Source: a virus | Reading direction: 5' to 3' (one strand) | IMG/VR virus record: IMGVR_UViG_3300022745_000152 | Span: 1 to 22,243 of that record | Length of the DNA: 22,243 nucleotides | Part shown: one piece after another, positions 13,721 to 19,034 of the stretch | Layout of the letters: each line of letters starts with the position of its first letter | Numbering within the stretch: the stretch's first letter is position 1 | Translations under genes and position numbers: made by a program | The notes under the pieces: model-generated | What the model was told of the DNA's origin: nothing | What the model saw: the letters and a program-made list of their open reading frames with translations, nothing else | The model's database searches: none

Positions 13721-14722
13721 TCAGCGGGCTCCTTGCTGCGAGTCATACTCTCGGTAGCGCGCGATCATCCGGTCGCGGGCCTCCTTGTTGTCCCAGACCC
13801 CGGCCTGCTTCATCGCCTCGATGCGCGCCGGGGTCAACGGGCTGGCCTCCGGGCGCGTTCCCGACGCGTTACCGCCGGGGCCGCTCACGGGTGGGCCGCG
13901 ACGGGCGCCGTTGCCGTTCGTTGCCACCGGTCGCTGAAAGCGGTGCGGAACACGTTCCTTGGTGCGCTCGCGCAGCTCCTGCCAGTAGGCCTCGCTGCGC
14001 GGGTCGTAACCCTCGGCCGACAGCTGCGAGTCGATGAGGCTCACCGCGACGGAGTCGGCGTCGGTTCCCTGCAGGTTATACCAGGGATGGTCCTGCATGA
14101 AGTTCAGGCCGTGGTCGGCGATCACGGGGTCAACGACCGGCTGCTGCGGCGGCTCCTGACGCCGCGGCTGCGTCATCTGCTGGCGGGCCTGCTGTGCCTG
14201 CCCACGTTGAGCGTCGATCCGCCGCGCCTCCTCGAGGGCCGCGTCTCGATCTGCCAGGGCCTGCACCGCCGCCGCGCCGTTGCCGTCGGTGATAGCCTGG
14301 GCATGCAGGCGCTCGGCGCGCTGGAAGCGCTCGCGTACCTGGTTGAACTGTGCCTCGAGCGAGGTGGTCGCGGCGTCGATCGAGTTGACGTGGCCGCGGG
14401 CAACCATCTCACGAAGCTGGGCAACCTCGCCGCGAAGCTGGGTCAGTTCCTGTTCGCTGCGCTGTCGGGCCAGCCGCTGCCGCTCGCGACGCAGGCGGTT
14501 CTGGCTCTGGTTGAAGCGCTCATCGTCGCCTTCCTCGGTCTCCCGCCCGGCGGCACGATGTTCAGGCTTGACGTCGGCGGTCGAGCTGGAGCCGCGGTCC
14601 TCGTTGCCCGCGGGCGGGACGGGCTTCTCGGTACTGGTCTCGAACAGCTTGAGGTCTTCGGTCGTGACCGGGATCTCGCCGCCGCCGACGTCGATCTGGT
14701 GCTCGTGGGTGGTGTCGCTCAT
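13721..14722 (-). CDS. Scaffolding protein (333 aa)
   Basis: A highly charged, Gln/Glu/Arg-rich protein directing procapsid assembly. The N-terminal ~65 residues are acidic and disordered-looking. Residues ~66-190 form a long coiled coil (NRLRRERQRLARQRSEQELT, LRGEVAQLREMVARG, RAERLHAQAITDGN). The Pro/Gln-rich linker RRQEPPQQPVV precedes a conserved-looking PVIADHGLNFMQDHPWY block, and the C-terminus contains a Pro/Gly-rich stretch then helices. This length and layout are typical of phage scaffolds located between portal and capsid. The SD is AAGGAGG seven bases before the ATG, which overlaps the preceding stop (ATGA). Confidence 0.8.
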   Translation of the reverse strand: MSDTTHEHQIDVGGGEIPVTTEDLKLFETSTEKPVPPAGNEDRGSSSTADVKPEHRAAGRETEEGDDERFNQSQNRLRRERQRLARQRSEQELTQLRGEVAQLREMVARGHVNSIDAATTSLEAQFNQVRERFQRAERLHAQAITDGNGAAAVQALADRDAALEEARRIDAQRGQAQQARQQMTQPRRQEPPQQPVVDPVIADHGLNFMQDHPWYNLQGTDADSVAVSLIDSQLSAEGYDPRSEAYWQELRERTKERVPHRFQRPVATNGNGARRGPPVSGPGGNASGTRPEASPLTPARIEAMKQAGVWDNKEARDRMIARYREYDSQQGAR

Positions 14723-15027
14723 TGCTGGGCCTCCTTGAGGTAGAGCTCGTTCCGGAGAGCATAGCCCTCCAGCGCCCAGACCTGGTTGAAGGCGTCCTTG
14801 AAGGCGTAGGTCTCGCCGATGTCCTTGTCGTAGTTTTCCGGCGAGGCGGCGGCTGACTTGCCAACCACCTTGAAGCCGTTGACCATGGTCAGGACGGCCA
14901 CGGTGAGGGTGCCGTCGTAGAAGTAGCGGACGGTCGAGATGCGGTCCTTGATGCTGTCCTCGGTTACCCGTGGGGCCAAACGGGTGGACATGGCCGCCTC
15001 GAGCTCCAGGTCGTTGAGAATGCTCAT
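14719..15027 (-). CDS. N4 gp49 / Sf6 gp66 family protein (102 aa)
   Basis: A small phage protein with the diagnostic pattern of this family: TLTVAVLTMVNGFKVVGKSA at residues 40-59, ASPENYDKDIGETYAFKDAF at 61-80, and WALEGYALRNELYL at 84-97. Its biochemical role is not established; in other phages homologues are widespread and poorly characterised. The start at 15027 is preferred over longer readings because GGAGGG lies seven bases upstream and it overlaps the GroES stop (ATGA). Its downstream stop overlaps the scaffold start. Confidence 0.85.
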   Translation of the reverse strand: MSILNDLELEAAMSTRLAPRVTEDSIKDRISTVRYFYDGTLTVAVLTMVNGFKVVGKSAAASPENYDKDIGETYAFKDAFNQVWALEGYALRNELYLKEAQQ

Positions 15028-15500
15028 ACCGGAGCCCTCCCCACGACGTAGGCCTTGATCAGACGGGGATCCACCCCGGACTTCAGCTTGCCGCGGATCT
15101 CGGTGTCCTTGAACAGCGCGAAGAGGGCCTTGCCCCGCTTCTTCTCGTCGCCCAGGTCTACCTCCCAGCGGTCGCCGCCGAACAGCGGGATGCGCACGTA
15201 GTCGCCGACCGAGCACCAGGCTCCCTCGGGCCACGGGTCTAGGGTCGTGCGGTTGCGGTGCGCCACGGGACCCACGGCAACCACCCGGGCCACCTGCTGG
15301 TTCCAGTACTCCGTGTCCACGGAGTCGTCGGACAGGATGATGCCGCCCTCGGTAGCGGTGCGCGGGGAGCGGATCTGCACGAGCACGTCGTGGCCGGTCG
15401 GCTCGATCATCGGATCGGCCTCCGGAAAGGGCTCGTAGGCTGTCCGGGTCGGGATCACGATGGACCGCGGGACAACAACGTTGAGTGCGGGTAGCGCCAA
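15024..15500 (-). CDS. Phage GroES-like co-chaperonin (158 aa)
   Basis: A lid-like co-chaperonin expected to work with host GroEL in folding phage proteins, analogous to T4 gp31. The core begins at PTGHDVLVQ (about residue 34). The mobile loop EGGIILSDD (51-59) contains the hydrophobic IIL at 54-56, the GroEL-contacting tripeptide of GroES (IVL). VARVVAVGPV (70-79) and WCSVGDYVRIP (95-105) follow, as in the Cpn10 fold. An N-terminal extension of ~30 residues (ALPALNVVVPRSIVIPTRTA) precedes the core. The start is TTG at 15500, with GAGGAG seven bases upstream, next to the preceding stop; an ATG at 15410 with GGAGG is an alternative. It sits beside the scaffold and capsid genes. Confidence 0.85.
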   Translation of the reverse strand: MALPALNVVVPRSIVIPTRTAYEPFPEADPMIEPTGHDVLVQIRSPRTATEGGIILSDDSVDTEYWNQQVARVVAVGPVAHRNRTTLDPWPEGAWCSVGDYVRIPLFGGDRWEVDLGDEKKRGKALFALFKDTEIRGKLKSGVDPRLIKAYVVGRAPV

Positions 15501-15501
15501 G

Positions 15502-15678
15502 TTATGGCTCCTCGGTTCCGCGCACGAGTTTCTCCATGATCGCCTGGGCATGCAGCATGCCCTGGTAGCGGCCCGCCGCGAGGTAGATCTCACGCTCGGT
15601 GCCGGCCTTCAGCAGAGTATCGTGCGCAAGCTTGCTCATGTCGCGCTGCAAGTCTCTCAGAAACTGTTCTTCGATCAT
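15502..15678 (-). CDS. Small charged protein at the start of the capsid operon (58 aa)
   Basis: A short ORF of 58 codons beginning MIEEQFLRDLQRDMSKLAHD and ending KLVRGTEEP. It is predicted to be almost entirely helical, with an EREIYLAAGRYQGMLHAQAI section similar to small helical proteins found upstream of capsid genes. There is no good SD before its ATG (15678). The leader from the divergent promoter candidate would be only about 16 bases, and a second Met at codon 14 is possible. Its TAA is one base from the GroES TTG start, supporting an operon. Function unknown. Confidence 0.65.
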   Translation of the reverse strand: MIEEQFLRDLQRDMSKLAHDTLLKAGTEREIYLAAGRYQGMLHAQAIMEKLVRGTEEP

Positions 15679-15698
15679 ATTAACCCGAAAGTGTGATC

Positions 15699-15726
15699 AC
15701 GGTATACGGTAGATTTTACGGTGTAC
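15699..15726. repeat. Three ACGGT direct repeats between divergent promoters
   Basis: ACGGT occurs at 15699, 15706 and 15718 on the plus strand, within ACGGTATAC, ACGGTAGAT and ACGGTGTAC. It lies between two outward-facing promoter candidates, so it could be an operator. A chance origin cannot be excluded. Confidence 0.3.
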
Positions 15727-15728
15727 AA
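15701..15728 (-). promoter_or_regulatory. Candidate divergent promoter for the 58-aa/GroES/capsid operon
   Basis: On the minus strand TTGTAC (15728-15723) is followed by a 16-base spacer and TATACC (15706-15701). Transcription would begin near 15694, about 16 bases before the 58-aa gene. It shares its -35 region with the plus-strand promoter. The -35 match is weak. Confidence 0.3.
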
Positions 15729-15750
15729 GGCTAACTTTTTATGTTATACT
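15722..15750 (+). promoter_or_regulatory. Candidate promoter with extended -10 for the plus-strand gene
   Basis: TGTACA (15722-15727), a 17-base spacer and TATACT (15745-15750) preceded by TG one base upstream (TGTTATACT) give an extended -10 element. The inferred start near 15757 leaves a leader of about 19 bases containing AGGAG at 15764-15768. This is the best promoter match I found in the window. Confidence 0.6.
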
Positions 15751-15775
15751 ATCCCCGTTGAACAGGAGAATCAAC

Positions 15776-16018
15776 ATGACCTATACCGTGTCTCTCGACG
15801 TTTCCCTCGAAGCCCCGTTTCCGACGCAAGCTCACTGTCTCAAACATAACATCCTGCGCCTGAACATCTTGGTCTGCGGGCCCGGGGGCGGAAACCCTGA
15901 ATACACTCTTACCTTCCCCACAAAACAAGCCGCCGAGAACTGGCTTCGCGAGATATATTTCGAAAACAGCCAAGTTTCAGACGAAGAACTGGCTGTTTAT
16001 CACGTGCCAGCCGGCTAA
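15776..16018 (+). CDS. Lone plus-strand small acidic protein (80 aa), function unknown
   Basis: The only convincing plus-strand gene. It begins MTYTVSLDVSLEAPF and has a strand-helix pattern (NILRLNILVCGPGGGNPEYT, then FPTKQAAENWLREIYFE), with an acidic C-terminal part (SQVSDEELAVYHVPAG). It is about 80 aa with a net negative charge. AGGAG lies seven bases before the ATG, and a promoter-like extended -10 lies just upstream. Its GC content is about 53% by hand count, below the roughly 63% of its neighbours. Its stop TAA (16016-16018) overlaps the stop TAG of the convergent minus-strand gene (16015-16017). This arrangement is typical of a moron or early-expressed accessory gene. No domain is recognised. 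Confidence 0.8.
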   Translation: MTYTVSLDVSLEAPFPTQAHCLKHNILRLNILVCGPGGGNPEYTLTFPTKQAAENWLREIYFENSQVSDEELAVYHVPAG

Positions 16019-16260
16019 CAGGCCCGACCACCTCTCTTCATGCCGGTCACCTTCTCGCCCATGGCCATGCGCTTGTGCTGGTTGACCGAGCCGCCCTTCT
16101 TCATCGCGACCTGCCCGGGACCCAGGGCTCCCATCGGAGACGGCGAACCCGAAGGTCCGGCGGGGGAGGGCGGCTGAGCGGCCTGCGAGGCAGCCGCGGC
16201 CATCACTGCCTGGCGGAGACCGCGAGCGGCCTTGGCACCAGCCTTCATCGGCTTCTTCAT
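16015..16260 (-). CDS. Small basic Gly/Ala/Met-rich protein after the portal (81 aa)
   Basis: A basic protein with a Lys/Ala-rich start (MKKPMKAGAKAARGLRQ), an Ala/Pro/Ser-rich centre (ASQAAQPPSPAGPSGSPSPM) and a Lys/Gly/Met-rich end (VAMKKGGSVNQHKRMAMG, then MKRGGRAC). Similar small KKGG-type proteins are frequent in podovirus operons; their function is unknown. The ATG overlaps the portal stop (ATGA) and the SD is AAAGGA. Its stop overlaps that of the plus-strand gene. Confidence 0.65.
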   Translation of the reverse strand: MKKPMKAGAKAARGLRQAVMAAAASQAAQPPSPAGPSGSPSPMGALGPGQVAMKKGGSVNQHKRMAMGEKVTGMKRGGRAC

Positions 16261-19034
16261 TCGCTTGGTCCTTTCTGTTTCGCCTGACGTTCACGTTCCC
16301 ACGCGGACATCCGCGCGATCTCCAGGCGCACGTCGTTGTCACGCGCGTTGAGCTCGTTCTGCTGGTGAAGTTGCGCGTACTGCAGGTCACGGTCGGCCGA
16401 CTGCTGCCGGGCGTCGAGGGCTCCCTCGAGCCGGGACTGGTCCTCGGAGGCGCGCGCCTCGTTGGCCTGCAGCAGCGCGTTGGCGGCCAGCTCGCGACGC
16501 TGGGTGTCCACGTCGGCCTGGTCGCGCGTGGCGTTCTGGAACAGTTGCGCGTGCTCGAGCGACGCGGCCTGCTGCAGCTCGGCGCCCTTGAGCTGGTTGA
16601 GACCGAGTTTGACCTGCAGCTCGCCTTGGTTACGCTGCTGGTCGAGCTGCAGTTCGCCCTGGTCCTTCTGGGCAGCCTGCTGCTGCTTCTGCGCCTCAAG
16701 CTGCAGACGCTGCGTACCGAGTTGCTGGTCGATCTGGTTCCGCTGCATCGCTGCCATCGCCGCCGGCCCGCCCTGCATCTGCGCCATCATCTGCATCTGG
16801 GACTGCTGCATCTGCTGGACCATCTGCGAGGCCTGTTGGACGATCATCGGGATCTGGCCCAGCGTCATTTTGGCCTTCTGCAGAACGATCGGCTGTGCCG
16901 TCGCGAGCATGCGGTCGAAACGCCGCAGCAGCGTTGGCGACTTGGTATCGATCAAACGCTCGGCCGGCTGGCCCGCCGCCGTGGTCACCTCGTCGTAGGT
17001 GTTCGAGACGTACCACATCGCGAGGTGCTCGATGAGATGCTTCAGCATCCCCGGCAACAAGCCCGACTGGATCGCCGGGTTGGCCCCGAAGGTCGGATCC
17101 ATCATGAACGCGAGGTGAGTCTGCAGGTGCGCGAGGTGGTCCTGGTCCGGGAACGCCATGACCGGCCGCTGCAGGACCAGCATCATGTTCTCGTTGACCG
17201 CGTTCTGGAACTCGGCCTCCTGCGGTTTCTGCAGGAGCTCGTCGTAGTTCGGCACCTTCAGCGTCTTGAGGACGTATTCCTCGACGTTGCGCTGGTTGTA
17301 GAGACCCACGGTGACGGGGTTCATCAGCGACTGCTGCGCCCGCTGCGCGACCGCCTGTACCTGGGCAAACCGCTGCTGCTCCGAGAAGATCGCCGGGTCG
17401 GAGACAGGGGCGACGTCGAGCGGTCCCTCGTAGTCGGACCGGTAGGCCAGTCGTTCCCCGGTCTCGATGACGAGGTCCTGCTCGTCGAGGTACAGCTCGT
17501 TGATGTTGTGGAGGGTCTCCAGGAGGGTCGCCAGCGCCCGGTGGTTACGCGCGTGGATCGCCTTGAAGACCTTCAGGCCCTGCTCCACGCGGGACAGCTG
17601 GGTGCCAACAGGCGTGTTCGCGTTGCTGTCGACCGCGGAGTCGTCGAGCGTGATGCGGACCATCTGCTCGGCCTGCTCAGACAGGAAACCGAGGAGCTGG
17701 AACAGCGCCGGTGAGGGCTGGTTGAACGGGACGGGCATCGCGACCTTGCGGATGTCGTCAACGTTCAGGCCGCCTTCGAGCTTGTTCACCTGCGTGAGGG
17801 CGATGTTCTGGTTCTGGCCGCTGATGTTCGCCCCCTCGAGGGCCAGCAGCGTCGGCGTGGTGTTCACCAGCGCGGAGTCGAGGAGCGCGCGCAGCGCCCC
17901 GGTAGCCGACACGCTCAGCGACGACAGAACCGCGTAGAGGCTCAGGTCGTAGGCGTCACGCCAGGCCAGGAAGGGGAACTTGATCAGCCAGTTGAGCCGA
18001 CGGTGTTTGTCGTCGTTCTCCTTCCAGTTGCGGTAGATGCAGCGAACGTTGTGCGTCTCTTGGTCGATCTCCATGATGTAGGGGTTGACCCCCTCACCCA
18101 CCAGATCGTCGACCACCGACATCCAGAGGATCGTCTGCACGTCGTCGGGGTTGGTCACCGGGTCGTTGCGGCCCGTCGTGCGGTTGATCGCCTGTTCGCT
18201 CTGGGTCGGCTCCGGCATCACCGAGGCTCGGATCAGGTCATCCTCAAGGTAGACCCCGGCAGCGATCTTCGCCTCGATGTCCGCGCGGGTCGTCACCATC
18301 TCCACGGTGATGCGACGGGCACCGTAGAACCACGTCGTCTCGTAGGGAACGAACACACGCTCGGTCGGGGTGAACTGGAACCGCGGCCGACGCTCCACGG
18401 CGTCGAACCACGCGAACATGAACTGGCACCCACCGACGGGAACCTGCGACTGGGTCTTCTCGAACTCGTCGAAGAACTCTGGTGCCTGCTTCGTCAGCTG
18501 CCAGTTCATGTGGCGGGCTTTGCGCTCCGCCTTCTCGAGCTTCTCGCCCGTAACGTCGCCCACCACGTGGGTCCGCACGGGGCCATCCGGCGGCAACAGC
18601 TCGGTGACGATCTGGCTCGTGTACTGGACCGCGGCCTTCAGGAACCCGGGGTGGGTGACGATCGATCCGCCCTCGAGACCGTCAGCCTCGGAGGGTCCAC
18701 CAGGCTCGTTTCCCTGAAGGCCCATACCCTCGATCGCATCGCGCTGGTTCTGATCGCGCTTCTGCCGGGTGTCCTTGTCCACCTCGTAGAGGTCGAAGTA
18801 GCGCAGGCCCAGGGCCCGCAGCTCGCCGGCGTCGAGGGTCTCAGCCAGGTTCTGGTAGAACTCGCCAAGCTCCGGGGCCGGCGAGGCCTTGTCCAGCTCG
18901 TTGCGAAGCTTGCGCTCGACCTCGTCCACCTCGTCGTCGGTGGCCATTGTGTCGAAGCCCTGTCCCGGTTGGAGCGACCCAGAGTCGTCATCATCGTCGG
19001 TATCAAACTGGTTTGCGGTCGGGTTGTCGCTCAA
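16257..19034 (-). CDS. Portal protein with long Gln-rich C-terminal coiled coil (925 aa)
   Basis: The 12-fold vertex protein through which DNA enters and leaves the head. Residues ~130-600 contain expected portal features: HPGFLKAAVQYTSQIVTELL, FQFTPTERVFVPYETTWFYG (wing/clip region), and IKFPFLAWRDAYDLSLYAVL (stem-like helix). They also contain QPSPALFQLLGFLSEQAEQM and VGTQLSRVEQGLKVFKAIHA. From about residue 728 to 920 it is Gln/Met-rich coiled coil (VQQMQQSQMQMMAQM, LEAQKQQQAAQKDQ), probably the barrel seen in P22-type portals. The N-terminus is acidic (DDDDD) and may be flexible. The start is TTG with GGGAG seven bases upstream, overlapping the preceding stop (TTGA). 925 aa is longer than P22 gp1 (725 aa). 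Confidence 0.88.
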   Translation of the reverse strand: MSDNPTANQFDTDDDDDSGSLQPGQGFDTMATDDEVDEVERKLRNELDKASPAPELGEFYQNLAETLDAGELRALGLRYFDLYEVDKDTRQKRDQNQRDAIEGMGLQGNEPGGPSEADGLEGGSIVTHPGFLKAAVQYTSQIVTELLPPDGPVRTHVVGDVTGEKLEKAERKARHMNWQLTKQAPEFFDEFEKTQSQVPVGGCQFMFAWFDAVERRPRFQFTPTERVFVPYETTWFYGARRITVEMVTTRADIEAKIAAGVYLEDDLIRASVMPEPTQSEQAINRTTGRNDPVTNPDDVQTILWMSVVDDLVGEGVNPYIMEIDQETHNVRCIYRNWKENDDKHRRLNWLIKFPFLAWRDAYDLSLYAVLSSLSVSATGALRALLDSALVNTTPTLLALEGANISGQNQNIALTQVNKLEGGLNVDDIRKVAMPVPFNQPSPALFQLLGFLSEQAEQMVRITLDDSAVDSNANTPVGTQLSRVEQGLKVFKAIHARNHRALATLLETLHNINELYLDEQDLVIETGERLAYRSDYEGPLDVAPVSDPAIFSEQQRFAQVQAVAQRAQQSLMNPVTVGLYNQRNVEEYVLKTLKVPNYDELLQKPQEAEFQNAVNENMMLVLQRPVMAFPDQDHLAHLQTHLAFMMDPTFGANPAIQSGLLPGMLKHLIEHLAMWYVSNTYDEVTTAAGQPAERLIDTKSPTLLRRFDRMLATAQPIVLQKAKMTLGQIPMIVQQASQMVQQMQQSQMQMMAQMQGGPAAMAAMQRNQIDQQLGTQRLQLEAQKQQQAAQKDQGELQLDQQRNQGELQVKLGLNQLKGAELQQAASLEHAQLFQNATRDQADVDTQRRELAANALLQANEARASEDQSRLEGALDARQQSADRDLQYAQLHQQNELNARDNDVRLEIARMSAWERERQAKQKGPSE

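Follow-up and report, generated by a model that had tools for sequence, protein, structure and literature searches.

As defined for phage genomes, a moron carries its own promoter and its own terminator, is inserted between genes that are adjacent in relatives and differs from them in composition (PMC4378225). In Caulobacter phage RW and its cluster, the structural genes form one long operon, the annotation contains no RNA polymerase and the capsid gene was not identified (PMC11053796).

The window analysed here is a virus record of 22,243 bases that carries a virion block on the minus strand. Its major capsid protein shared 76% identity with gp86 of Caulobacter phages RW, GB2A, RLK and KcrB and 75% with the protein annotated as capsid in ctpbd312. 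The gene order portal, s81 (with an HKRMAMG-type motif), s58 and GroES-like gene was recognisable in RW, and related small genes were found in the same interval in ctpbd312 and many IMG/VR contigs. The relationship to RW indicates that the host is probably alphaproteobacterial. RW gp86 itself (L003:9001-9915, QDH50447) is annotated as a hypothetical protein; from its 76% identity to the window protein, it is very likely the capsid protein missing from the RW-cluster annotation. The record also holds a second mobile element, a free-standing GIY-YIG/NUMOD3 homing endonuclease gene at 228-1097 on the minus strand, with a GC content of 51%. The features of the locus under study are as follows.

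15024-15500, minus strand: GroES-like gene, start codon approximate (PHROG 3188, E 6e-7; RW homologue annotated GroES)
15502-15678, minus strand: conserved late gene of 58 aa (s58), one flank of the insert (gene order kept in relatives)
15679-16014, no strand assigned: 336-nt insert, from the start of s58 to the stop of s81 (junction in relatives, GC)
15722-15727, plus strand: -35-like hexamer TGTACA (sequence match only)
15742-15750, plus strand: extended -10-like element TGTTATACT (rank 3 in the window, shuffle fraction 0.05-0.09)
15764-15768, plus strand: Shine-Dalgarno sequence AGGAG, 7 nt before the ATG
15776-16018, plus strand: gene of an 80-aa GPGGGNP-family protein with a Frd.3-like predicted fold (sequence, family and fold comparisons)
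16015-16260, minus strand: basic late gene of 81 aa with the motif NQHKRMAMG (s81), the other flank (motif, gene order in relatives)
16257-19034, minus strand: portal protein gene, 925 aa (PHROG 1216, E 2.7e-8; 71% identical to that of L002)

The s81/s58 junction could be scored by motif in 52 of the 136 relatives having both portal and GroES genes; in the other 84, one gene was missed by the motif search, and most portal-GroES intervals there were too short for such an insert. The distance from the s81 stop to the s58 start was −11 to +2 nt in 45 of the 52, so that the two genes overlap or abut, and 18-19 nt in three. It measured 336 nt in the window, 597 nt in L002 and 279 nt in L045 and L065, where the gap holds a co-directional gene. 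The portal-GroES interval was 747 nt in the window against a median of 394 nt over 187 loci, a set in which intervals above 600 nt in L171, L187, L211, L218, L229 and L230 were left uninspected. Both RW and ctpbd312 had the empty site, with overlapping junction genes. Because the junction genes touch or overlap in most scored relatives, RW included, the polarity read from gene order is insertion, not loss. The survey of this locus in relatives that the earlier note suggested thus returned a lineage-specific insertion: no sampled RW-type relative carried an orthologue, which leaves the window as the single carrier in the sampled set, and no copy of the gene was found anywhere in the available sequence of L002, RW, ctpbd312, L005, L016, L026 or the genome of L224.

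The nearest relative, L002 (portal 71% identical), also has an insert at this junction, unrelated to that of the window, and for that reason the junction looks like a cargo site. The L002 insert (L002:9015-9611, 597 nt) contained terminator-like hairpins, promoter-like sites and, on the strand that does not encode the late genes, a degenerate tRNA-like piece that scored 24.4 bits, below the gathering score of 29. A co-directional gene of 103-107 aa (MEDAALYIGEKAR...) was a third kind of insert at this junction, in L045 (3927-4238) and L065 (2937-3260). An HNH-endonuclease-like gene, judged by eye, was located directly after the portal gene and upstream of s81 in L130 (4086-4751); by this reading mobile elements recur in this interval. 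Rfam yielded no convincing match for the insert of the window. Scanning for the longest stretch free of late-direction ORFs was uninformative, as spurious ORFs masked the insert.

The GC content of the insert (15679-16014) was 49.4%, 5.2 standard deviations below the remaining window (z −5.2; 49% against 66%), and its one convincing gene was the 80-aa plus-strand gene. This ORF begins with ATG at 15776 and ends with TAA at 16018, where its stop codon overlaps that of the convergent s81. Its GC was 53% and its GC3 60%, compared with 59-71% and 78-90% in 17 structural and late genes. Its codon adaptation to the late genes was 0.41, compared with 0.59-0.81 in the same 17; the sole gene with similar codon use was the homing endonuclease gene at 228-1097 (0.33). 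The predicted protein has a pI of 4.9 and a charge of −5. In these respects the earlier description was confirmed: a plus-strand gene of 80 aa that counts as real in the minus-strand late block, a clean AGGAG seven bases upstream of its ATG, a GC of about 53% below that of its neighbours, and an acidic product. ORF length by itself was a weak sign of coding, as the longest ATG ORF reached 80 codons in 2.6% of shuffles. Above all because protein relatives exist, comparison shows that the ORF is coding rather than a product of chance.

Direct searches with the 80-aa protein gave nothing significant in viral contigs, GTDB genomes, plasmids or phages (phages at E 1). There was no match in Pfam, PF05798 Phage_FRD3 included, in PADLOC (a library of defence systems, not of their inhibitors), in NCBIfam or among PDB sequences, and PHROG 5922 was not listed in a direct PHROG scan with E up to 10. 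The tblastn match in phages, to Erwinia phage FBB1, was at chance level (E 1) and contained a CGPGGGxPE motif at the same position. It was taken further only after the GPGGG motif and its position agreed, and was then checked with a profile free of FBB1. The relatives of the FBB1 protein itself are PHROG 5922, with members in Erwinia phages FBB1, Cronus and IT22, Serratia phages Muldoon and PS2, and Karamvirus. On a nine-member profile of this type made without FBB1, the window protein ranked first with 14.8 bits against 7.6 bits among 7,373 decoys and shuffles, and T4 Frd.3 scored 20.1 bits. The Serratia phage PS2 member matched Pfam FRD3 with E 0.0009, which does not reach Pfam's cut-off.

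The two-sequence alignment, used for a pattern scan of IMG/VR, led to a 77-aa protein in L253-L255, which starts with MTYSITLDIS and contains GPGGGNPEIT. This family provided the best relative of the window protein, with 34% identity over 58 residues (pairwise E 4e-10). A further scan recovered L259-L261 (82 aa; MKYYIDLDIAW...CGPGGGNPIYRF) and L262. The window protein scored 35.9 bits on a profile of L253 and L259, and the next among the 7,373 decoys and shuffles scored 6.3. L253 alone matched PHROG 5922 with E 0.0023. Both significant similarity and the invariant GPGGGNP tie the window protein to L253 and L259. On this evidence it is a member of a scattered family of phage proteins of about 80 aa with a C/LGPGGGNP loop, and it appears to be linked to PHROG 5922 and Frd.3 through intermediates. 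The earlier label of an unrecognised protein thus fails in its strong sense. The profile and structure searches that the earlier note had recommended gave a family and a predicted fold through the intermediates and nothing from standard libraries. A match to KIL1 had no motif in common and was dropped. A P-SSM4 protein (PHROG 32861; E 0.019) showed a similar C-terminal pattern, lacked a GPGGG loop and was not assigned.

The FBB1 member lies directly after a gp32-like gene, the Cronus and IT22 members after the endonuclease gene denB, and T4 frd.3 between gp32 and frd. In L253-L255 the members are among small genes between SpeD-like and 2OG-oxygenase-like genes and a thyX-like gene (named by eye), upstream of the latter. 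In T4-like phages, the gp32, denB, thyX and frd neighbourhoods belong to the early or middle regions. Where neighbours are recognisable, most of the relatives lie among the small genes of such regions; the contexts of L259-L261 and L262 were unassigned. No literature on the function of Frd.3 was found, and a T4 knock-down screen treats frd.2, not frd.3.

The AlphaFold model of the 80-aa protein alone had a pLDDT of 50.1 and was set aside. With five relatives, six sequences in all, the pLDDT was 77.7 and the pTM 0.66. This model contains strands at 3-8, 28-32 and 42-47 and helices at 18-23, 50-61 and 69-74, a predicted beta-alpha-beta-beta-alpha fold in which the GPGGGNP loop (35-41) connects strands 2 and 3. 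A Foldseek search of viral models returned the member from Erwinia phage Cronus, not itself part of the alignment (E 1.2e-3, probability 1.00), two 'frd-gp32 intergenic' Frd.3 proteins (probability 0.98-0.99), and proteins from jumbo phages of Erwinia and from Gordonia phages. All matches in a fold search of the PDB were weak, the best with E 0.042 (ferredoxin-like and RRM folds), and gave no function.

The candidate promoter reads TGTACA-17-TATACT with TG preceding the -10 hexamer. A consensus scan over 20 kb found it as one of two matches, with 2.0 expected by chance; within 4 kb it was the sole 9-of-12 match (0.2 expected). By a weight matrix, which is E. coli-like and may not be that of the host, it ranked third in the window, narrowly below one site on the minus strand of the insert and another in the region of the homing endonuclease gene. 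Composition-matched shuffles equalled it in 5-9% of cases. It is thus only marginally better than chance. The extended -10 element claimed in the earlier note is present as described; its standing as the best promoter in the window is not, since it ranks third and lies near chance. On the minus strand, promoter-like sites at 15741 and 15774 (region 15713-15774) face s58 and the GroES-like gene, with scores close to that of the plus-strand site. No terminator-like site was found in 14000-18000. A perfect 9-nt inverted repeat, CACGGTATA/TATACCGTG at 15698-15706 and 15782-15790, flanks the promoter and the gene start. It is plausibly placed for an operator, and since it is at chance level we make no such claim.

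We consider the 80-aa gene a laterally acquired accessory gene, reversed between touching late genes, expressed early and acting on the host, and not a part of the virion, with a probability of roughly 0.7. At the level of sequence, the lateral acquisition is documented by the insertion, the foreign composition, and the small-protein family with its GPGGGNP loop and predicted fold. Early expression is probable, because the RW-cluster annotation has no phage RNA polymerase and the virion genes form one operon, and the target is probably host physiology or defence; an anti-defence function is a guess. In the proposed course of events, the gene would have entered reversed between two touching late genes of an RW-related phage. 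Shortly after the DNA has entered the cell, host RNA polymerase would transcribe the gene from the extended -10 promoter that it carries, ahead of the opposing late transcription, with which it would later collide. The small acidic protein would then bind to a target in the host by way of the GPGGGNP loop that joins strands 2 and 3. Genes of this kind commonly act in takeover or counter-defence, and the binding may serve one or the other, as is presumably the case for the relatives in early regions of T4-like phages.

The gene could instead be neutral cargo, recently acquired, poorly expressed, without benefit and bound for loss. Its presence in one genome of the sampled set agrees with this, and the different insert in L002 and the other gene in L045 and L065 at the same junction point to turnover; however, the ORF is intact, its Shine-Dalgarno sequence is good and the motif residues are kept, and we regard neutral cargo as unlikely. 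Nor do we favour an insert that is mainly regulatory with a secondary ORF, giving transcripts antisense to s81 and the portal gene or restarting transcription of the 58-aa, GroES-like and capsid genes from its minus-strand sites. Such a role is consistent with the convergence on s81 with overlapping stops and no terminator, with the scores of the sites at 15741 and 15774, and with the terminator-like and promoter-like sites in the 597-nt insert of L002; it is improbable given that the ORF product has relatives that agree with it in length and fold and that the promoter scores are near chance level. That the gene is a minor structural or morphogenesis gene of this lineage would suit its place in the virion block, between the portal gene and the GroES-like one, but is highly improbable for a gene on the opposite strand, of foreign composition, absent from relatives having the same virion genes and with a family mostly in non-structural regions. 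A spurious ORF in a non-coding spacer, short, found in a single genome and matched in length by 2.6% of shuffles, can be practically discounted, as independent phages have in common the MTYxxxLDxS start and the GPGGGNPExT motif, with profile and structure evidence besides.

Beyond the accessory gene itself, it is possible, though we hold it as a doubtful extension, that GPGGGxP/Frd.3-like proteins are a mobile takeover or counter-defence family across T4-like, jumbo, actinobacterial and RW-like phages, here carried as a self-promoted cassette and made before late transcription. The uncharacterised small-protein family and moron-like insertions were already known; the divergent member, the cargo junction and the family connection of RW-like with T4-like phages are new. 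An orphan ORF is thereby placed in a family that can be traced across unrelated phages, and lateral transfer is documented for a gene type whose other examples come mostly from early-gene regions. Genes of this type are often the accessory factors on which the outcome of an infection depends, and a junction with different inserts in different relatives would be a cargo site worth mining.

Compared with the phage moron (PMC4378225), the window gene is likewise a single coding unit of foreign composition between genes adjacent in relatives. It differs in that the promoter is a candidate, an extended -10 site marginal against shuffles, that no terminator was found and that the stop overlaps that of the convergent neighbour; for these reasons it is a moron-like insertion and not a textbook moron. 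The earlier reading as a moron or early accessory gene therefore stands as to insertion, foreign composition and codon use, and relatives mostly in early or middle regions, and gives way as to the strict moron. Caulobacter phage RW and its relatives (proposed Riverwalkvirus) agree with the window in the order of portal, GroES and capsid genes and in the 76% identical capsid, whereas in RW the two junction genes overlap and there is no gene of the 80-aa type. The proteins of L253-L255 (77 aa) and L259-L261 (82 aa), all from uncultivated phages, are similar in length, in the MTY/MKY-x-I-x-LD start, in the C/LGPGGGNP loop and in the following strand and helix. Those of L253-L255 lie in co-directional clusters of small genes in T4-like contigs, whereas the window gene stands by itself and runs against the late operon that surrounds it. 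PHROG 5922 proteins have W for N in the loop and an extra acidic segment after strand 1, but they are also small and acidic, with a GPGGGWPE loop and a similar predicted fold. T4 Frd.3 (PF05798), although it has no GPGGG loop, resembles the 80-aa protein in size, in its fold by Foldseek (two orthologues) and in the acidic YC-D tail region.
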